Shown here piece by piece: positions 1,930-56,874 of a stretch of DNA of 64,000 nucleotides; positions within the stretch are counted from its first letter, which is position 1; the number at the start of each line of letters is the position of its first letter. The stretch is from Cheilinus undulatus (taxonomy: Eukaryota; Chordata; Actinopteri; Labriformes; Labridae), in the NCBI RefSeq assembly GCF_018320785.1, contig NC_054867.1, positions 20,890,855 through 20,954,854 on the forward strand, written 5' to 3'. The position numbers and the translations under genes were made by a program. The notes below the pieces were generated by a model. It did no database searches, was not told the origin of the DNA, and worked only from the letters and a program-made list of their open reading frames with translations.

Positions 1930-4900
1930 TTAGTCCTCAGCCTCTTTAGTTTCTTTTTTCTTCTTTTTCTTCTTCTTCTCAGTCAAAGGGGTCTCTGGAG
2001 TCTCTTCTGCCTCCACAGTTTCAGTCTTTAGTTTTTTCTTCTTCTTGGCTGGCGTTTCCTCTGCCTCACCACCTGCAGCAGCGGCTTCTGCTTGCTCTGC
2101 CTCAGCTTTTTGTTTCTTTTTCTTCTTAGCCGAGGTCTCCACTGTTCCGTTCTCTACAGCGGGGCTTTCCTCTGCTTGGCCCTCCATCTCCTCTGCTGCA
2201 CGTTTCTTCTTTTTCTTCTTGACCACAGGGGTTTCTACCTCTCCATTCTCCACCTTTGAGAGGATAAAAAGCCAAAATAAGTCTGGAAAAACGGCTGCAC
2301 TCATTTTCTAGGCTAAGCAGGCCAAAAATTTACACATTTCTGTAGCCTTAGAGGGCCTGCGTTGTCTGACTCGCTTCAGTGATCAAGCCCATTGTTTGGG
2401 ACCAGCCAATGGTTCGGAGTCGAGCTGATGTAGCATGTCGTACACTGAGATAGGACCACACATGTGGGTCAAATCGCAAATCAAACATGCATAACCAGAC
2501 ACAAAAATGCAAACTCACCTCAGCTTCACTGTTTGTTTCACCGTTGGCTTCAAGCTCTTGCAACTTCTTTTCACGCTTCTTACGTTTCTTTTCCTTCTTT
2601 TCCAGTTTGCGCTTGATCTCAGCTGCAACATCAGTGGCCTTTAACAAGAGGACAACAAAATGAGCACAATCAGATCGAAAACAAATGAGCAATTTTAAAT
2701 GTTAATACTGCTGTGTCAGGCTCATTAAATCAGTTTTTGCCCTCAGTGATGTCAGGAGAGATTATTTCATCATTCACAGCAGCAAAGATGGCTTGTTTTG
2801 TGTTTTTGCTCACCTCTTTTACAGCATCTTTCATGACATCCACATTCTTCCGCGGCACCTCCCCAGTCTCATAGAAAGACAAACGCTCCTCCACCTGTTC
2901 ACGCAGCTTGTCACCAAAGACACTTGTTGGGACCTCTGTGGGGAATTTTTCAAAAATTAAATCCATGCTGAAGATTACACAGCTTTAGAGTCTTTAACAG
3001 ATGTGTGGCTGTGCTCAGGAATTAGTTTATCAACATCAACCCGAAGGTTAAATACTGTTGACGAAAAATATGAGCATCATTGCAATACTGCCACATGAGT
3101 CCAACCAACACGGTCGTTTCTGTGAAGTATGTCACTTGCCTGAAAAACAGTCAATGCGTGATGCTATGGTGCACTTGTTGGCCAGATATCTGGAGATGCG
3201 ACCTTTGTTCTTGGCTGCAGCACGTCCAATAAAAGTCGAGTGGAAGATGAGTCCATACTTGGGGGTGTTGCCACGTGTCTTCAGGGCTCTGTAAGAAAAT
3301 AAGTAACTTCACAATATAGTTTCAAGCATTTTAATGTTTTCTACCAGGCCCAACAGGAGCCCTCAGCTTTGTGCACACAAATGTAGTTAGGGAAGTATGA
3401 AACTAGTCTGTGGAGAAGCACAGAATTCTTTTTTTTTTTTTTTTAACCATTTGTTTTTTGTTGGGCTGATTTTGAGAGGCAGAGCCACTAAAGTGAACCC
3501 TGGTCTTTCCGTTTAATTCTAATTTGTAAATAGGCAAAAACCAAAGTAATAACACAAGGACATCTATGTGTAGTGCCTAGACTTGCTTTTCAATTTGTCT
3601 ACCTCAGCTCAGCGAGTGGCTGCTCAGACTGTGGGAGTGCATAAGGGCGAGAGGGATCACTCCAAAGAAGACATTAAAAGTCACATCTCCTCCAGTCACC
3701 CTGCTCTGCTCAAGCCCAGCCCTGCCATCACTGCAGCCACTTCTTTCCCCAGCAGGGAGGGGGCGCCCCAGTACCTGAACAGGGCCTTCTCTGCTCCCAG
3801 GATCTGAACGGTGGAGGCCGGGTACTTGGCCAGGTTGGTTAGACTGCCGGCATGAGAGATGAGACGAGCTCCCACCTAATGAGACAAAGAATCATCAGTG
3901 CCATAGACATAGGGAGTGATAGAGATGAGTTTCCAAATGGTTTAGAGACCATCAGCACCGGATGTGGTTGTCATCACATTATTCAGTGGATTGACAGATT
4001 TTGGTATAACATCACTGGTCAGTTCAATTTATACACAGAAAATAACACTCCTCTGCTTACCACTTCTCCAATTAGGGCGGCGAGATTTGGCGCCACCTGG
4101 CTCATCTTAGATCTCAGGTACTCCTGCAGCTCAAGCCGGTAAGCAGCTAGAGACACAACGCGGTCAGAGAACCTCTCAATGTTGATCAGGTCGATGGGAG
4201 AGATGTCCATACCTGAGGGAGAAAATTAAAAGGATGTTTTAAGCTAGTAATTTTAGTACATCAAATATTATAAGCTTTAGAGCAAGGTGCATTTGTTTCT
4301 CCCGACAGGATCCGCAGCAAGGATTTGTGCCTTCACTACAGGTTTATGAGAGAGCTTCTCTGCCCCCCTGTGTTAGGCACCAAGGACAATTATTGGTCCA
4401 GGGTGGGCAAAAAAGGGGCACAATGTGCTCTAAATGTCAGAGATAGGAATTGTCCTAAGATAAAACTAGCACATTTTACATTAGCACACTGGTATCTAAA
4501 GCAAAATAAGACTGCTGACCCATTGAAGAGCGGGATGCATCCAAGATGGCCTGAGCCTTTGCGCTGTCCATTACCACTTCCTCTAAGCTCTCCAGGTTCT
4601 CCTCAGACAACTCTTTTCTGTTTCCAATGAGCTGAGCCAGTTTGCAGTACATTGAGTTGTCTGGCACGATCTTTATCAGCTCTGGGAAGTGATAGCCGTA
4701 CCATTCTCTGCAGATACAAGCCAGAGTAAGTAAAACATGATCTACAACCATCTCATCACACTGTATATCCAATGACATCCTTAGGGGTTGACTGTGCATG
4801 TGAATTAAAGGCAAGTATGTCTCACCCAACAATTTTGCTCCACCAGACAACAGCTGGGAGAGCAGATGTGCTAGGAGAGCTTCATGTTCCTCCTGTTTCT

Positions 4901-29400: not shown

Positions 29401-32400
29401 AACTTTAGTGGAGACTGGTTAGCAATACAGATCCTGAGTTACCTGGTGTTGTAGGTATGAACCGTGGTCCCATGCCCATACAGAGACCTGCTGCTGTCAA
29501 CTCTTCTTAAGGACATCTCTGGTTGCAGATAGCGGCTCACAGATGCCTGCAGCCTGCATCACTCTCCTTCCAGAGTTCCCCTGCTTACTGAATGACGGTG
29601 TTTTACCAATCTTCACCAACTTTCTGAGGATAAATTGGACCCCAACCAGAAGAGCTGAATGAAAATTTGTCATCCAAATACGTTTCTGGCTGCATTTGGC
29701 ACAATATGCCGAAGCATACAGACCCAAACAGCTGCTCAAATGCACTGAGGTGGAAGAGCATGTAGCCAAAGCTTGCATTGCATAATTGTGCCAAACACAG
29801 ATGAATTCTGGGTGAAAAATAAAATGCTTCAAAAATTTAAAAACAGCATACAATTAAGCCAATTTTGTTTTTTGGCCCATTTTTACATAAACCAAAATTA
29901 GTGTACCCATCCAGCTTCCTCCAGCATATCCTGAGGCTAATATCACTACTATTGCCAAGTACCTTATACAACCCAACTTCAAAATACTGAAATATTCCTT
30001 TAAATATTTAGTACACCTTCACAAAGACATGTGAAACCATCATTTCATGCACATGGGAAAGACTGCAGAAGCTTACCCAGCAGAAGGTTGGTGAGAAGAA
30101 ATGGTCCCAGGTGATTGGTGGCAAAAGTCATGTCTAATCCCTCTTTGGTTATCTGCCTGGGTAAACCTGTAGAATTTAAATCAATAGAATAAACTATATG
30201 AAATACTGATATATATGATATAATAAACTATGTGTTCATTATAAATATAAATTAGCAAGCAGGAGTCCACTGAGGAGGACCTTATTTGACCTTGTTCATG
30301 GTTAGTGGATCCACATGTTTGTTTGTGTCAGTGAAGTTGCATAATGGCTTCTGTTGACGCTTCAGGGCTAATTTCCTTAATCATACATTGCAATGTTTTG
30401 ATGCTGTGTCTGCATCCAATTCTTTGTTCAGTGGACAGCATTTAGTGCCAGGGTGCCAAACTCTTGCTTCTCTTGTTTTGTATCCAGATGCTTTCCAGAT
30501 GGGGGAATGCAGACTTTATGTTCTTTTTGTGGTCAGTAGTGCTGTTTAAAGATTTACTAGCTTATGTCATTTTTTCTTTTCCAGATGGTATTTTGGCATA
30601 GGTACTAAAATTTTCACAGATAGAAAAAGTATAAGACTAAATGAGAATCAAGCACAGATGAATTAAGGTACTGAATTATTACAAAGTAGTCCAGTGCAGC
30701 TTTATAATGACATAATTTCATGTATCACCTGATACTCCAGCATTGTTAACGAGGATGTGGAGAGCCTTTTCCTCCTCAAGAATCTCCTTGGCAAACTTTC
30801 TGACAGACTCCATGGATGACACATCCACCAGGCGCAGATGGACGTCAGGGTTTCCGGATTTCTTCCTGATTTCTTTGAGAGCCGCCATCCCCCGGGACTC
30901 ACTTCGGCAAGCCAGGATAACACGGGCTCCACGCTGTGCAAAGTCCAAGGCAATGAATTTCCCGATCCCTAACAGAGAGGAAAAGAGACAACATTCAATG
31001 TTTAAAATAGTCCATAAAGGAGACTGCAACATCAGATTGGTGTTGATGCAGGGAAATATAAGATGACGCTGTATACTCTGCTTTCACCTCCTTAATTTAG
31101 GAACAAGTGCAGTTCTTATAAAAAGTGTATTAACCCATGGATGTTTTACCTTTTAATAGATTCTATAAATCAATCATGGGCAATGTAATTTTGCCTTATT
31201 GACAAAAAAATCTTTAATGTCAAAGTGAAAACAGATTTCTACCAAGTAATGTCAATTAGAAAAAATACGTAAAATAAGTGATTGCATAAATATTCACCCC
31301 CTTATAGGCCGTTGCATATAGGAAAAAACCACCTAACCCTAAAAAAATTCTAACAAAAGGTTTCTCAGCTGTTTTTTGTAGTTTTAGGTGTCCTTGACAA
31401 CATACTAAAAGTTTACCGAAGTTTGACCACTAGAAAGGTGTAATTTTCAAGATGGTGTCGAAGATGGACAGGAAGCCCTTAAAATTGCTTGATGTGGGAG
31501 CCCTTAAAATATCCTAACTCCTTCATTATTTGACCTAGCCAATCTTGCTGTCTAACCACATGTTTTCCGGGTCTGTGAATCCATTGGACTTGTCTAAATT
31601 GCACTGACATGACTACATACTTATGTAATACATGATTTTGTGAGATTACTGTAAGGTTTTATCTTTGTTTGGGGTGAACCAGAGATGTAAACGATTTAGC
31701 CATGTCATGTAACTCCTATTCAGTACGTGTTTTTGGACACATACCCTTTTTTTGCTAAAACACAGACTTGACATTCAGTGTAAAAGTTATTGCACCCAAA
31801 AGTAACTCAAATTGAAGATGTATAACTTTTGATCTTAAACAACTTTGAATTAGCCTGAAGAGAGGCTTGTGTGTGAACCCTCTAAAATGGTCACTCATTT
31901 CAATTTGAATAAGGTGATACATATGTAATGAATCCTCTATAGATGTTTTTGAGTATAAAGATGGCATTATACTAAACCCAACAAAACTAAATTCACAATT
32001 TTCAGCAATTCAGAAGATGGTGGAAGAGGATACTGACATTTGAAATTGCTTGCCTCATTGAAATGTTGTTGGCAGCACAGTGTATACCATTTTGTTAAAA
32101 CAAACTTCATCCTTGACTACTTACAGAAAGCATTCCAGAAACTTATGAATGGTGAATCAACCATCCAGTCCTGTGCAAATGTGTTTCTGCTCCCACATGA
32201 AGCAAGGACTGTCATGGAGGACCATGGGACCAAGGCAATGGCAGTGTTGTTTGGTGAAAAGAGTGCAGATTCACTTGCCTCTTTGTGCTACAACCTTTGT
32301 AGCAAGAAAATCGTTACCGCCAAATCATTTGTTACCCCAGAATGTCTGCCTCCAACTGAGTCCTCAACCAAATACCACTGCTAAAGAGTTTACTTCCAGA

Positions 32401-35400
32401 TCATGGTGTGGATTGGAAAGGAAGGTGACATGAACACAGTGGATTGGGGATGGAAACTGGTGGACAGCCGGTTCCTGCCAGTTATGACCAGTAAGACTGC
32501 TGCCCAAAAAAGCCTCCTGCAGATGATCCACTGTAATTGCACAACTGCCTGCCGAACACAACGGTGCAGTTGCAGAACATATGGACTACCATGCATGCCT
32601 GCTTGTGGACCATGTCAAGTTGGGAATTATGAGAATCACTATAATTAACCTCTATGGGAGGAAGAGTGTGATGACTAATGTTATATCTAGTGAAAAACAG
32701 TGCAAAATAGTATAAAAAATAAACCAGAATAAGAGGAAACAACTTAAGAAAACAGAAAAGATATGTATAAATAAGAAAAAGTATTTAAAAAATATAAAAA
32801 ACAAAAGGCAAAAAAAGCATTATAAAAAATATATTAAAAATAGGCTAAAACACAAAAAATAAAAGGGGTTAGCGGTACTGAGCCTTCAGGTGGCAGCCCT
32901 GTTTTGACTAATTTTACACTGCTTTCCACATTATCAAGCAAATGACAGAATATTTTTCAAGTCATCAGCTGTTAGAGCATAATTCAAATGTTTTTGAATT
33001 ATTTAAATTTTTTAAATAAAAACCCCAAAATGCACTGTTCCACATTATTAAGCACAGCAAAGTTTTGAAACATTTTATAGGTTGTAAAGAACTGAAAATG
33101 ATCATTTGTTGAATTTGCAGCATTAGGAGGTCATATTTACTGATATCAAAGCTATTTCAATCAAAAACATCTTAACAGGCCAAGTTCCATGTTAACATAA
33201 GAGCCATTCTCTGATATCACCTTCACAATTCTTGCATCCATTGAACTTGTGAGTTTTTGGAGAGTTTCTGCTTGAATTTCTTTTCAGTATGTATGTAGTA
33301 TGAATATCTTCCCAGAGCTGCTGTGAACTGCCTCCCACCCTCATAGATCTTTAGCTTGAGGATGCTCCAAAGGTTCTCAGTAGGGCTGAGGTCAGGGGAG
33401 GATGGGGGCCACACCATGAGTTTCTCTCCTTTTATGCCCATAGCAGCCAATGACACAGAGGGATTCTTTGCAGCATGAGATGGTGCATTGTCATGCATGA
33501 AGAAAATTTTGCTACAGAAGGCACAGATCTTCTTTTTGTACCATGGAAGAAAGTGGTCAGTCAGAAACTCTATATACTTTGCCGAGGTCATTTTCACACC
33601 TTCAGGGACCCTAAAGGGGCCTACCAGCTCTCTCCTCATGAATCCAGCCCAGAACATGACTCTGCCCCCTCCTTGCCGACGTCACAGCCTTGTTGGGACA
33701 TGGTGGCCATCCACCAACCATCCAGGGTTGCACAGCACTCATCAGTCAACAAGACTTTGAAAATGAGTCTTCATGTATTTCTGGGCCCACTGTAACCGTT
33801 TCTGCTTGTGAGCACTGGTTAGGGGGGGCAGGATAGTAGCTTTATGCATGACTGCAAGCTTCTGGAGGATCCTACACCTTGAGGTTGGTGGGACTCCAGA
33901 GGCACCAGCAGCTTCAAATACCTGTTTGCTGCTTTGTAATGACATTTTAGCATCTGCTCTCTTAATCCCATGCACAATCTGCACAATCCCGTCTGTGCTC
34001 TGAATCAGACACCAAGTTCTTCATAGTAAGATGATCAGGCTTAAGTTTTCATGAAATAGCTCATGTTTTCATTCCTTGTCCAAGGCATTACACTATTTAA
34101 CACTTTTCAGCAGCAGAGGTCCTTTTTCTTTCCCATATTGCTGAAACCTGTCGCCTGCTTAATAATGTGGAACAGTGCATTTTAGATTTTATTTTTTTAA
34201 AAATAATGGTTATTATTATGAAGTTTGTTCAAAAACATCTGAATTATGATCTAACGGCTGATGACTCGAAAAATACTCTGACTGTCATTTGCATTAATAT
34301 TTAGGAAAATAAGAGAAAAATGTCATTTGCATAATAATGTGGAAAGCAGTGTACAGTACCACACAGTTCTAATGAATTTATTCTTTAGTAGAATCAAAAG
34401 ATTTGTTATGAACCACAAAACCACCAACACTCTGCAAAACAATATGTGAAAGGTGAAATATGCAGTTAACCAATTGCTTTAATATATAATTCTACTTGTA
34501 ATCACTTATCTATCATGCAAATGACAATTAGAATATTACATGGCCAAAACATGTATCAGGCACCAGTATTCCTGGTCTAGGAGGAACACAAAGGAGTAAT
34601 GGTCATTTTAAAGATCTGACGGCCACCATCTTGAAAATTACACCTTTCTAGTGGTCAAACTTTGGTAAACTTTTAGTATGTTTTTAAGTACATCTGATAC
34701 TACTGTAAACCACTGAGAAACCTTTTGTTAGAATTTTTTTGGGGTCAAAGCATAAATGCAGCCACCTATTAAAGTGACTGACCTAATTTAAGAACATTTC
34801 AGCCAACTGGTGCCAGTAGTCTCACAGTTAGTGAAATGGGAATCACCTGAGTGCAGTAAATGTGTCTCATGTGATTGTAGAATTAAGTCAGCTGAGTCTG
34901 GAAGGTCCAGTCAATGGCTAATCAGTATTCCTGGCTACCATTACATCATGAAGACAAAAGAACATTCCCAGCAACTCAGAGAACAGGTTATTGAAAAGTA
35001 TAAGTCAGGGGATGGATACAAAAAAAAAATCCAAGGCAATGAACATGCCCCAGAGTTCAGTTTAACCCATCATCAAGCCATGCAGTCTCCTTTTGTGATA
35101 CAAAATGGATTGCTCTGAAGAGCTCAGTGACCACAAGCATGGTACTGTGATGGATGCCACCTTTGGAATAAGACATTTCCTGAAATTTTATCCCTGCTGG
35201 GTATTCCACAGTCAGCTGTAATGATATTAGTAGAAAGTGGAAGCATTTAGGAACAGCAACTCAGCCACAAAGCAGAAGACCACATAGAATCACAGAGCAG
35301 GGTCAAAGACCACTAAAGTGCATGCTGTGTTAAAGTCACTAACACTCTGAAGACTTCTTAACTTCCATTGGCATTAATGTAAGCACAACAACTATGTGGC

Positions 35401-38400
35401 GGGAGCTTCATGGAATGGGTTCCCATGGCCAAGCAGCTATAAGCACTGGATTGAATGATGTAAAATACATTGACACTGGCCTGTGGATCAGTGGAAATGT
35501 GTTCTATAGCATGCTGAATCATACTTTTCTGTTTGGCAGTCAGATGGGTGAGTCTGGTTTTTTCCAGATTCTAGGAGAATGTTACCTGCCTGACTGCACT
35601 GTGCCACTTGTGAAGTCTTGTTATCTTGAATTGTTATCACTCCTTCGCCAAACTTCACAGTTGGCACAATGCAGTCAGGCAGGTTCTCCCAGCATCCATC
35701 AAACCAAGCCTCGCCCACAGTTTTACAGCTGACCGTGGAATATCCAGCAAGGATCAAATATCACAAACCATCTTATTGCAAAGGTGGTATCACTGCACCA
35801 TCTTTGATGTCACTGACCTCATCAGAATGACCCATTTTGTATCAAAACGTTGGCAAATGGAGACTGAATTAATAGGTGCTTGATTTTATACACCTGTGGC
35901 AACAGGTCTGATTGAAACTCCTGAATTCAATAATTCACAGGTGGGTACTTTTGACCATATAGTGCATAGCAGTGTTTTATAGGAGACTGCTTTGTCTGCC
36001 ACCTCAGTGTCTTACTTGTTATGCCATATCTTGCCCCCCCCCCCACTTCAGTTTACAAGGCAGCCTTTAATTTTTATCCACTATGTCTGATGATATGGTG
36101 ATACACGGCCTTGAGATGGTACACAGTCTCATTAACAGGTCATTAACCCTGAGGGACACAAGGTAATTTGTGTCCCTCAGGGTTAATGACCTGTGAAAAG
36201 GGATCAGCCATTGGGAAATGTTTGGCTGTTTTTGCTGTAGCTCTGCTTGCGATGTTGGTGCAGATCATCTGCTAGCAATAAAAACAGCTGTGGAGAGAAG
36301 GTTCACAGAGTAGATCATGTCTAAACTGTGCCAAGTTGTAGATTTAGGATACTTTCTGTACATTTAGTTCATTAAATTCTTTTACTCAGAGGAGTCTTCT
36401 CTTCACCTACAACAGGTAGCTGTTATCAAAAAACAAACTCTACAACCTTTGCAGCACTGAACTATAGACAGAGATAACAACTATCCTCTGATAAACAAAG
36501 CTGTGTACTTACGAGCTTAAAAGCCAAGTAATGTTCAGATGTTGCTGCAAACCAAAACAAGGTTCAAATAAGACTGAACATTTGCAGTGCAGGCTTCTAG
36601 AAATCTCCAGCCTGCCAATGTTGCTCTGTAGCGGCATGTTTGCATAATAATAATGCAGGTTCAGATTCAGTAAAGTCTAACTGAACTTTACTCAGAGATC
36701 ACCAACAATTGTGAGGAAACAGGGACAAAGCACACTAAGTGAAAAAAACATGGAGAGTTATATGATCTATAATCATTTGCAGATGAACAAAAAGATCATG
36801 TAATTTTCTTACAGCTGCAGAAAGCAGACTGGCTTTGGGAATTGCTCCGAAATTTTTCGCCAATGTCACACAGCTGGCTAAAGTCACTGAAAAAGCCAGA
36901 ACACATATTAGCACAATGCACACTTTAACAATCTGTGGTCCTGAAGGGTCCAGCAGGATCAGGTAAAAAACAAATCATGTTCATCAAAAAATCGAAAACA
37001 TCCTGACTCAGAATTTGAGATATTTGACACTATTCCTCTCTGACTATTTAGCCTGAGAGGGTTCAGGACTTGCTGTGGGTGGGGGGATTGATAGCAAGCG
37101 AGCAAGGACTGTTTTGTTTGGAAAGATAAGTCCAGGTCCAATGTATCTTTCCTGAACATAGTTTATGTGCTCTTGTTTTTACATTTTTATTCACAAAATA
37201 CTCCATCCTCTACTGCTGATACACTCTCCATTTTTGCTGATCAGGATTTTTTAAGTCACTTCACAAATCACTTTGAGTTGCATTATTTGTGAGACATAGA
37301 GACAAAAACAAGCTTGGCTTGAAATACACGCCAAAGAAAATGAGTGAAACATGACAGGTTTTAAAGTGAAAAGGAAATATAAGAAGGGACAATGATGATT
37401 ATTCACAAATGCAAAGTAAGGTCAGATTTTTCCATACTTTGGTAATTTTGAATATGTGTTTTAAAAACAACAAAAAATCCAAAAACTTAACTATCATTGG
37501 TGTCAAAAATTGAGAAAATACTGGTATTTTTGATCATTTAAAACAAGAAATTACTGGGGATGCACTATATTATTTGCATGATATAGGTACTGGCTGATAT
37601 TAGTTTAAAAAGTTCATCATTGTTATGGCACATATGATAATTTCTGCCAATATTCATATCTGATATTTTGGCTATGAAAAATCTGTCCATATCAGCAGTA
37701 AATATTGGCCATACAGACACATATGTGGGGCTAAAATTACTTTGTAACATCAGCATATTAGATAGCAAAATATACTGATAAAAAATACACACATTGACTG
37801 AATACACAGGTGAAGGTTCTTACTCGGTGGACAACTTCACTCATGGTGCAAAAAAAACAAAACAAAAAAGAACAGCAGCATGGATCACTGTTCAACAGCC
37901 AACATCAGAACAACACTAAACACTGCCCAAGGGCATAATGGGAAGTTCTTCCCACACATCCCTCCAGATTTGAAATCACAGTGGGCGAAGCTTAGACCAG
38001 TTGACTCTTAGAGAGTTAAAGTAACACTGGTGGATCAACACTGTCAAATTACTTTGGGAGTTGAAATAAACACAAATAGTCATGGTCACTTTTAATTAAC
38101 TGACAGTTCAACTCAGCGTAAATGTGATGACGCAGCAATTAGTGTTTGTGCCATCATGACAAACTTAAGGGTTAGAGCTATCAAAATAATTCAGCTGTTA
38201 TCATGTAAATGAGGAATTAAGTTTTACCTGGATGTAAGCATAAATGTGGCTTGAGAGCAGACCTTACAGTTGCTGCTGACAGATCAACAAATAAATACAA
38301 ATTAAGTGACTAAAGAAGAAGTTACATAGCCAGTGTAGCTCAACCTCATCATCTTATTCAACTCAAAGTTTGAAGTTAGTTCAGGAAACTTTTTTCATGT

Positions 38401-52466: not shown

Positions 52467-55400
52467 ATGAAGGACTTAGTGCAGTCAGTGGAACTTGGGG
52501 TCTCTGAGAGGAAAGGAGTTAAAGTAACTCGACCCAGAGTCTGGATACAGAATGAAGTGGTTCGCGTGGGACTCGCTGAAACCCTTTGCACTTACATCAT
52601 GATGGTAAGAAAAAGCCAAATACAATTTCAAAAACGTTTTATGTGTATGTATTCATGATGTAAAAATATCTCAGATATGTATGATTCCAGTGGCTCTTCT
52701 TTGATTATAACATAGCAGCACTCTTATCTGTAACATGCACATGCTGTTAATGATTAATGCCATGTTCTTGACCCTGACTACATGTCCCCTCTGTCAAATA
52801 CAAGTGTGCTACACAGTCACATGGCAAGAGTGCTGAATGAGGATTGGTGAGTCCAAGTGGTTGAACCAGGAAATATAGTGTTGCCAGAGGAATGATCAGG
52901 CAGTGGGCCACATGAAGAGGGCTGCAAAAGTCACATGTTACATCAGCTGTTACAACAAACCCTATAGTTAGAGACCTAGAAGAAATACACACAAACATAG
53001 TGGCCGTATGCTGAACACAGCATGTAGCTAAGCATGTGAGCACACATGTACAGGGGATTTTTTCTTTTGTTAAAAACTTGCAAAGGAGCGGTTTCCCTTT
53101 TGACCTAAATACATACAACCTCTGGCAGAGAAACCACGGGTTTCCTGCTTCCTGAATGAATGGCTTGACTTACTCAGTGTCTGCTTTTTCCCTCAAACGG
53201 TCACTTTGGGTCACTGGATTACACGTTGAAAAGAGGGGAAATGCTATAGTAAGCATGTTTGAAATACCTCAGTGTCTTATACACTAGCTGTGAGACTGGT
53301 GCATTGATTTACTACAACTACATCTGTTAACGCGCCTGTTACACTTCCTGCTACATGAGTACATGACCTAAAATAGACAGTTTCAAAGTTTGAACTATAC
53401 TATACTTCATCATCTTAACCTCACTATTTCCTATTCCTATTTCCTATCACTATTGCCCTGTTCAGTCTTTTGGCCTGGGGTCTGTGGCTCAGGTAGTGAC
53501 AGGACAGGGGGCCTTTGGACACTTCATCAGTATTAACCTGGGCTTTGGACTTGGTGTTGCTATGGGGGTTCATGTTGGAGGGAAGGTCTCAGGTATGAGA
53601 GCAGAACCTTCTAAAAACTAGTGACAACAATCATGAATCATCATCTGAAAAATACATCTTATGATTTTTGTTTCTCTACCAGGGGCTCACATGAACGCAG
53701 CAGTGTCCATCACAATGTGTGCATTTGGCCGCCTTGCATGGAAGATGCTACCCATCTATGTGTTTGCACAGCTACTGGGTTCATTTCTGGCAGCAGGGAC
53801 CATTTATGCTGTTTATTATGGTGAGGACACACTAAGGAGTAAAGCCTGGGGATAGCCCCCCAGTCCCACCCCCTTGAAGTTTCAGTTTCCACTATAATAT
53901 ACTCGACAATAATTGGCTATTTACCCTCTCAGATGGCAGATGTATTAAAATTAACAACTTGGGCTGTGTTGCAACCAGCTGCCAGTACCATTTGATGCAT
54001 CTTAATGTACTTTAAATTGTGACTTGGAAATACATCTTTGTAAGAAGTACAAGCTAAGTATTAAGCTAAGAAGATTTACACTGCCTATAAAAAATGTTAA
54101 CCCCCTTAGATGTTTAACTGTTTATTGATTTTACAAATCAATTGTAGTCAATATAATCTGGCTTTTTTGACAAAAAATGTAAAAGAAAAGAACTCTTTAG
54201 TGTTAAAGTGAAAGCAGATTCCTACAAAGTAATGTCAAATAAAAATCTGTAATGTAAAATAAGTGACTGCATACATATTTACCCTCTTTAAAGTAAATGA
54301 CCTAATTCAACGGAGGTCCAGCTATTGGTGCTAGTAGTCTCACAATCAGTGAAATAGGGATCACCTGAGTGCATGAATGTGCCTCAAGTGATCGTAGTAT
54401 AAAGACACCTGTGTCTGAAAGGTCCAGTCCCTGGTTAATCAGTATTCTTGGCTACCATTACTTCATAGAAAAAAAGAACACTCCAAGAAACACAGAGACA
54501 ATGATATTGAAAAGGTAAGTCAGGAGATAAATGCCACAAAAATTCCAAGGCAATGAACATCACCCCCAAACAGTTAAATACATTAAGAAATGAAAGGAAT
54601 ATGGCACATGTGCAAATCTGCCTATCAGGCTGTCCTCACAAACTGAGTGACTGTGTAAGAAGGAGACTAGTGAGAGAGGCCAAGACACCTATAACTACAT
54701 AGAAAGAGTTACAAGCTTCAGCAGCTGATGATGGGAGAGACTCTGCATACAACTGTTACCCAGATTCTTCACCAGTAAAAGCTTTATGGGAGAATGGCAA
54801 AGGGAAAGCCACTGTTGAAGAGAACTCAGAATAAAAGCCGGATCATACCTCTAACATGCTAGTCTTGTTGAGTTGTGGCCACGGGGCATCTTGAATGTGT
54901 TGTTAATTATGTCCCAAAATACCATTTGTAGTTCTCAAAGCTCCAAATTTGGCCCAAGTTTTGATGATGTGCTGAGACTTTGCAGTTGGGCCAAAATCTG
55001 GCTGAATTTGTGTTGTTTGAGGCGGGCATAAATCTCAACTAGAGTTCACCAGAAGGCATGTGGGAGACTCCATGGTCAAGGGGAAGAAAGTTCTTTGCTC
55101 TGATGAGACAAAAAAAGGGGTTATTTTGCCTTCAGACAAGTCGCTATGTTAGGCAGACACCAAACACTGCACATCACCACAAACTCACCATCCTCACTGT
55201 GAAGCAGGTGGTGGCAGCATCATACAGTGGGGATGCTTCTCAGCAGCCTGCCCTAGAAGGTTTATAAAGGTAGGGGGTAAAATGCAACAAAATATAAGAA
55301 AATCCTTGAGGACAATCTTATTCAGTCTGCAAGAGCATTACGACTTGGGAGAAGATTTTTTTTTGCCAGTGAGACAATGACCCTAACATACAGGGAATGC

Positions 55401-56874
55401 TACATAGAAATGGTTTAAAGACAACAAGGTGAATGTTCTGGAGTGGTAGAGTCAAAGGCCAGACCTCAATCCAATAGAGAATTTTTGGCTGCTCTTGAAA
55501 AGGGATGTTCATGCCAGATCCCAGTGCAACCTGATGGAGCTTGAGCAGTGTTTTTAATAGAAGAAAGGAGTAAAATTACAGAGTCCAGATGTGAAAGCCT
55601 GACTGAGACCTATTCACACAGACTCAGAACTGTGATTGCAGCCAAAGGTGCTTCTACTAAATACTGACATGAAGGGGGTGAATATTTATGCAGTCACTTA
55701 TTTCACATTACATTTTTTCTTAACATAACTTTGTAGAAATATGTGTTCACTTTGACATAAAAGATGCTTTAGTATTTTTTTTTTGTCAAAAAGCCAAACA
55801 TGATTGATTTGTAAAGTCAGTAAAAGGGTAAAAACATCCAAGGGGGTAAATATTTTTATAGGCACTGTAGATGTAGCTGATCTGGTGTGTTACTTTTTCT
55901 TTAATATATAAAGGGAATGAAACTTCTAGATAAATAAATGAGATGAGTTAACACAGATATGATTAATGCTTTTTATTCAAGTGCGCCTTCTCTGTCTTGT
56001 ATTTCTACTGGCAGTCATTAACCTAACTTAAATCTGTATTTCTTCCAAACACAGAAGCTATACATGACTATTGTGGAGGAAACTTGACTGTAACTGGTGC
56101 CAGGGCCACAGCTGGTATCTTTGCCACCTATCCTGCACCCTACCTCTCCTTACCGGCTGGATTTATTGACCAGGTAGCCATGACCCAAGACTGAAAGGTG
56201 AACGAATGACAATCATCAGACTTATTCTGAATTATCTCTGTTTTATTGTGTTTTGTAAGGTGTTTGGCACAGCTATGCTGCTGCTGTGTCTGATGGCATT
56301 CAGTGACCAGAAGAACAAACCAGCCCCAGCGGGACATGAGCCTATTATTGTGGGCCTCCTGGTGCTGCTCATTGGCATTTCTCTGGGCAGCAACAGCGGC
56401 TATGCTATCAACCCCACCAGAGACATTGCACCCAGGGTGTTTACAGCCATAGCAGGCTGGGGACCTGATGTGTTCAGGTAAACAGAGGGGATGTTTGCTG
56501 TTTTAGGGACAATCCCATGGTGTTACAGGTCATGTAAACTAGAGTTGAGCTGAAGCAAAACCACTCTGTTAATTATTATTAGATCTTTATTGAAGTTATT
56601 CCCTACATGTGTCTGATTCTTTCTGACAAAATAAATGAACATTCCTCTTTGAATCTACCGATTAACCTCCTGTCTTTATCTTTGCAGATCTGGTAATGGT
56701 TGGTGGTGGGTACCTCTTGTTGCACCCCCAATTGGAGGAATATTGGGTGCAGGGATCTACAAGGTCTTTGTGGAGTTGCACCACCCTCCCGTCTCTCGGG
56801 GTGACAGGCTACTGGAGGAGGAGACTGTTGCTCTGGAAAAACAAGAAAACAGCTGTGCAAATGTGTGTGTCTAA
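52467..56874 (+). CDS. aqp7: Aquaglyceroporin 7
   Basis: Membrane channel for glycerol and water. Coding exons 52467-52604, 53466-53592, 53683-53820, 56055-56173, 56260-56477 and 56688-56874 join in frame to 308 aa. The first channel motif is Asn93-Ala-Ala (AHMNAAVS) and the second Asn225-Pro-Thr with Arg228-Asp (GYAINPTRDIAPR). NAA in loop B and a non-NPA second motif are hallmarks of AQP7 (human NAA and NPS, from memory). Also matching are ARATAGIFATYPAPYLSLPA and GNGWWWVPLVAPPIGG. Human AQP10 and AQP3 are less similar at these spots. The N-terminus (46 aa to the first intron) is basic and cytosolic. Intron 3 holds a full Tc1 copy. The start ATG is the first in a 5' region that begins near 52250. 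No AATAAA was seen soon after the stop. Confidence 0.93.
54079..55867 (+). mobile_element. Tc1 element with about 210-bp inverted repeats, in aqp7 intron 3
   Basis: Flanked by TA (54077-54078, 55868-55869). The left end starts CACTGCCTATAAAAAATGTT and the right end finishes TATTTTTATAGGCACTG; the repeat extends about 210 bases. Decayed transposase on plus includes EEACKLQQLM...-like helix sequence near 54700, then ARPQTPNTAHHHKLT-type DDE remnants (55058-55267) and SGVVESKARPQSNREFLAALEKGC-like C-terminal text in broken frames near 55440. It is inactive. It is the best preserved relative of Tc1 A at 31.1/34.8 kb. Confidence 0.8.

Follow-up and report, generated by a model that had tools for sequence, protein, structure and literature searches.

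The window analysed here is a 64,000-nucleotide stretch of the Cheilinus undulatus genome (NCBI RefSeq assembly GCF_018320785.1, contig NC_054867.1, positions 20,890,855 to 20,954,854 of the forward strand), and all coordinates below are counted from its first letter. Positions 31305..34768 (+) are occupied by a copy of a DNA transposon, probably Academ-like and non-autonomous, that carries a Tc1-type transposon inside it; the assignment draws on its ends, its target-site duplication and homologous copies throughout the genome. The element spans 3.46 kb, of which 1.4 kb is the nested Tc1-type element. It is bounded by terminal inverted repeats of about 150 bp on the left (31305..31456, +) and about 145 bp on the right (34625..34768, -), both located by an inverted-arm search and end alignment. 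The outer ends read TAGGCC... on the left and ...CACCTA on the right, placing TAGG at both as inverted repeats. When the outermost 156 bases of each side were aligned in inverted orientation, 127 of 164 alignment columns were identical, and an ungapped arm pair of 122 nt is 89% complementary. These values bear out the long inverted TAGG...CCTA ends described in an original prediction made from the sequence alone. An Rfam scan of window positions 30000-36000 gave no match at gathering thresholds.

The element is flanked on each side by TTA (31302..31304 and 34769..34771, unstranded), the target-site duplication that the original prediction had also reported. When the two flanks are joined, they match window positions 54079-54487 without interruption (76% over 416 alignment columns), and this empty-site paralogue has no second triplet at the junction. 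To place the element within a family, we searched 1.17 Gb of the genome in 46 contigs, and all match counts given here are lower bounds. At least 48 matches to the 696-bp left end of the element were found. Stretches were fetched in sets of 20, 15 and two, with L047 of the last two belonging to the window family; the 35 copies compared are the fetched family stretches, with two adjacent pairs rejoined and the window copy added.

Both ends were located in 26 of these 35 copies, and the nine others, which lack an end, were left uncounted. An exact 3-bp duplication is present in 18 of the 26 (17 found by script, plus L024, whose left end was read by eye), compared with about 0.4 expected by chance at 1/64 each. 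The recurrence of the ends and duplications across the genome confirms the proposed terminal-repeat DNA transposon. The duplicated triplets are CAA, AAT, TTA, TAG, AAT, TAT, TGT, ATA, TTA, TGT, TTA, GGA, TAT, TAA, AGT, TGA, TTA and CAA; five of the 18 are TTA or TAA and 13 are other triplets. The match extends beyond 3 bp in L022 alone, where it covers six bases. The duplication is thus 3 bp of varied sequence, and TTA is no fixed target. Among 31 copies, sequences differ from the majority sequence by 3.4-6.8%. In two copies, L029/L030 (C5:2280500-2297500) and L031/L032 (C13:2282000-2298000), the left 300 bases are interrupted by an insert of about 10.7 kb, and the L043 copy (C7:29916000-29921500) holds an extra insert of about 1.5 kb with Tc1-type transposase pieces, read by eye.

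The coding content of the window copy is a relic. The frame at 32040-32648 has one internal stop, TAA at 32382-32384, and ends in a CXC-like tail, both as originally described. Within it, positions 32124..32645 (+, one stop) carry the C-terminal tail of a large protein, comprising the end of a nuclease-like region, a PPT...WGW part and a cysteine cluster. The cluster (32532..32615, +; read from the translation) has eight cysteines spaced CxC-x3-C-x4-CxC-x6-C-x3-C-x2-C. The frame is also found between the repeats of other copies and therefore belongs to the transposon, as had been supposed.

Comparison with the other copies places an internal-deletion junction region (...FILDYL / QKAFQKL...) at 32109..32128 (+). 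At or just after this region, L012 has HAFTGCDTTSRIFSVGK, immediately before the same tail as in the window frame; an N-terminal cysteine piece survives in L019 and L042, and a further piece, which a genome search found in one copy only, in L021. Because different copies retain different pieces, a single long coding region was internally deleted in more than one way. We read the window frame as the C-terminal remnant of a large protein after internal deletion rather than as a CXC unit, and the earlier statement that the element encodes a CXC protein was too strong.

An outline of the large protein was obtained with a probe of 1421 residues corresponding to an animal protein of unverified source, which serves as a lead and not as an authority. 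Probe residues 1248-1421 match the window frame (57% over 174 aa, E 1.5e-60), residues 1-134 match the N-terminal pieces of L019 and L042, and residues 296-372, ahead of the DDE region of the probe, match the L021 piece. The L012 piece is not individually listed against the probe and would fall among the 55 C-terminal rows of that comparison.

Deeper relatives (L044, L045, L046 and L048) came from distant matches of the tail search and from the search with L012. Three of the six distant tail matches (on C5, C21 and C3) were set aside, as were C13:48326067-48326309 and C1:50919776 among the L012 matches. In L046, which the probe matches at 29% over 157 alignment columns, the order is N-terminal pieces, candidate DDE region, nuclease-like region and WGW-cysteine tail, interrupted by stops and frame shifts; L045 is related to L046 but degraded. 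The same order of regions recurs in L048, which represents another family and carries a nested Tc1-type insert of its own (read by eye). L044 has a nuclease-like region and a tail with no DDE region ahead, lying between long inverted repeats in an element of about 2.8 kb (L044:3799-6609) whose exact outer ends were not pinned down; its 228-residue nuclease piece has itself as sole genome match. The tails are similar, not identical: PP and the cysteines recur, and WGW becomes GW in L048 and GY in L044. Four scans of viral contigs confirmed no relatives there.

Seven residues (D10, D53, K61, R68, D144, D165 and D167) are invariant in all four nuclease regions compared, those of L044, L046, L048 and the probe. 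They follow the order of the FEN1 catalytic residues D34, D86, K93, R100, E158/160, D179 and D181. In a MAFFT alignment with FEN1 added, D86, K93 and R100 fell on invariant columns. The candidate DDE regions of L046, L048 and the probe share DNxD in three of three, a second D (DQP) in both of the two that cover it, and E in two of three. On these motifs the regions would be of DDE and nuclease type, and the order in which they stand in the deeper relatives can be read directly. The L048 tail matched Pfam TCR/CXC (Tesmin) PF03638 with E 3.2e-4 at 21.4 bits, below the cut-off of 23.5, and the other four tails scanned, the window tail included, gave no match to this model. Pfam detected no helicase in the L046 and L048 pieces.

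Descriptions of Academ transposons mention an XPG nuclease and an eight-cysteine zinc finger; a literature search for Academ joined with XPG or Cys8 found no paper. Kojima 2023 gives AcademX duplications as 3 or 4 bp and AcademH duplications as 9 or 10 bp, and ties this difference to the encoded nuclease versus helicase (PMC10045372). We consider it likely that the window element derives from an Academ-type cut-and-paste transposon of the nuclease-bearing AcademX lineage, as a dead, non-autonomous copy with an internal deletion. The original prediction had named no superfamily for this combination of features. The printed description (PMC10045372) makes Academ/AcademX a plausible home. The family is probably a new non-autonomous Academ family, placed there by its likeness to that description; the DDE and nuclease regions behind this placement are candidates.

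Several observations weigh against the Academ assignment. The 3-bp duplication is absent from eight of the 26 both-ended copies (L009, L012, L021, L028, C5big, L033, L034 and L041), of which L009, C5big and L033 have TAGG...CCTA ends. The remaining FEN1 catalytic residues did not align in the same MAFFT alignment. An hhalign comparison with human FEN1 aligned a short stretch that lies away from the N-terminal catalytic motifs (probability 3.8, E 0.011), PDB profile searches with A2 and A3 returned no FEN1, and other PDB sequence searches gave no informative match. Pfam scans of the nuclease and DDE pieces found nothing above cut-off, and the matches below it were to unrelated families only. 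L046 has K at the candidate catalytic E, L048 is without the second-D region, and the probe itself supplies a row to each comparison (nuclease, four rows; DDE, three rows). The idea that the related proteins are all transposon-borne is supported by L044, between its long inverted repeats, but inverted ends were not found for L046 and L048. Fuller copies sought through the terminal repeats, as first proposed, yielded the additional protein pieces of L012, L019, L042 and L021 but no window-family copy with a DDE region; a genome search with the DDE part of the probe matched L048 only and, because it missed L046, is no test for distant copies.

An alternative is that the element represents a superfamily separate from Academ in which a DDE core is likewise joined to a FEN1-like nuclease and a CXC tail. 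In its favour, the DDE, nuclease and window-tail pieces are without a Pfam match above cut-off, and Academ is known here from its printed description. Against it, the 3-bp duplication and the nuclease-like region fit the AcademX description as printed (PMC10045372). Because that description already fits, a new superfamily is not needed, and we judge one unlikely. That the window family, L044, L046/L045 and L048 form a DDE, FEN1-like nuclease and CXC lineage distinct from catalogued Academ is likewise doubtful, at roughly one chance in ten. Were such a lineage real, its CXC tail would supply DNA or chromatin targeting, and a single uncatalogued superfamily would account for all the unnamed animal proteins that have this tail.

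It is very improbable that the element is a Harbinger, Kolobok, piggyBac or EnSpm/CACTA transposon with a captured fragment of a cysteine-rich host gene. Harbinger elements make a 3-bp duplication specific for TTA or TAA, and the TTA of the window copy is Harbinger-like; however, 13 of the 18 duplications are neither triplet. The element does not have the CACTA ends of EnSpm elements. Kolobok and piggyBac duplicate TTAA (PMC9587614), whereas just one of the 18 duplications (L022) matches over more than 3 bp. As for a captured fragment, L044, L046 and L048 all have a similar cysteine tail behind a nuclease-like region, and in L046 and L048 a candidate DDE region lies further upstream. Because the tail recurs in this position, it seems to belong to the protein of the transposon itself. 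Harbinger, Kolobok and piggyBac identities were rejected on the sequence of the duplications.

Decay of the frame was assessed over its last 261 bases in 29 copies. The ratio of nonsynonymous to synonymous change (dN/dS) is 0.99-1.35, depending on transition weight, change at the three codon positions is nearly equal (0.0375, 0.0434 and 0.0366), and 14 single-base changes create stops. With dN/dS at about 1, the frame evolves without constraint and the copies are therefore dead derivatives. The last 81 codons are stop-free in several copies, as an exapted host gene or a small protein still under selection would have it, but these measures, together with the stop that interrupts the window frame itself, make such a gene scarcely credible, and a selected small protein was rejected on the dN/dS value. 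The window copy is thus a relic, non-autonomous and, by inference, moved in trans by a protein encoded at another locus. In searches that did not extend to the nuclease part of the probe, the assembly yielded no intact source copy.

The insertion history of the element involves Tc1-type transposons both inside and outside it. The nested element, which is broken, lies at 32917..34351 (-) and is recognised by its inverted arms, a DDE_3 match and an empty site in seven copies; it is flanked by TA duplications at 32915-32916 and 34352-34353. Its transposase relic (33226-33984, -) matches Pfam DDE_3 with E 2e-9. Because this match, the sole DDE domain recognised within 31305-34768, lies inside the nested Tc1, it belongs to the other transposon. 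The DDE_3 domain is thus ruled out as the element's own transposase, and the first reading of the locus, which left open a DDE domain upstream, had overlooked the nested Tc1 altogether.

A Tc1 junction is shared at the same place in 25 of the 35 copies (15 with both junctions, 10 with one only), seven have an empty site and three were left undetermined. The tree built from 31 copies has short internal branches and places all seven Tc1-free copies in one group (support 0.997). This group also holds six Tc1-loaded copies (C13big, L014, L016, L018, L022 and L037), so that there is no clean split between copies with and without the Tc1. The family is thereby an example of a transposon that was still spreading after another transposon had landed in it.

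Outside the element, a Tc1-type element with long imperfect inverted ends lies at window 54074-55872, and the insertion-site repeat stands uninterrupted in its left part. The right flank of the Academ-like element encodes a piece matching the Pfam Sleeping Beauty transposase helix-turn-helix model (E 1.2e-5, 25.4 bits, below the cut-off of 43). Because the empty-site repeat has inverted ends and the flank has this match, a Tc1-type transposon was most likely the target into which the Academ-like element inserted. Elsewhere in the window, positions 789-1319 hold another Tc1-type transposase relic (DDE_3, E 2.3e-10), and a short-chain dehydrogenase exon (30718-31032, -; Pfam adh_short, E 6e-15) lies about 270 bases from the element. 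Open frames at 1930-2304 and 4476-4850 (-) resemble NOP56 exons.

Taken together, the regions suggest how the transposon might work. In an intact relative, a single large protein would comprise an N-terminal cysteine region, a DDE-type core, a FEN1/XPG-like nuclease and a C-terminal CXC-like domain. Its transposase would recognise the TAGG-ended repeats of about 150 bp and excise the element, which would be joined to staggered cuts whose repair filling yields the 3-bp duplications. The nuclease could trim flaps or hairpins, and the cysteine domain might bind DNA or chromatin. Window-type copies would have lost the DDE region and most of the nuclease region and then moved in trans, and this movement would have continued after Tc1 had landed inside one copy. 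The element is an ordinary object apart from its poor representation in protein libraries. Pieces of proteins with the eight-cysteine tail matched no Pfam model above cut-off in the scans made, and such proteins therefore surface as unexplained; in annotation, they should be suspected to be transposon products.

Among known systems, the Tesmin/TSO1-like CXC domain (PF03638) resembles the L048 tail at the sub-threshold score given above, unlike the four other tails. PIF/Harbinger elements share a 3-bp duplication, which is TTA in the window copy, but the family's targets reach beyond TTA/TAA, and no Harbinger transposase appeared in the Pfam scans made. AcademH belongs in print to the same superfamily as AcademX but pairs a 9-10-bp duplication with a helicase, whereas the window family pairs 3 bp with a nuclease-like region. 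A difference from AcademX is that no window-family copy with a DDE region was found. Like AcademX, the window family has terminal inverted repeats (about 150 bp) and 3-bp duplications of varied sequence. Its relatives carry candidate DDE and FEN1/XPG-like nuclease regions. Curated autonomous Academ elements of bivalves average 5,565 bp (PMC10294476), and Academ is known in teleosts, with records from zebrafish, medaka and stickleback (PMC4746887) and from Xiphophorus (PMC4705583).

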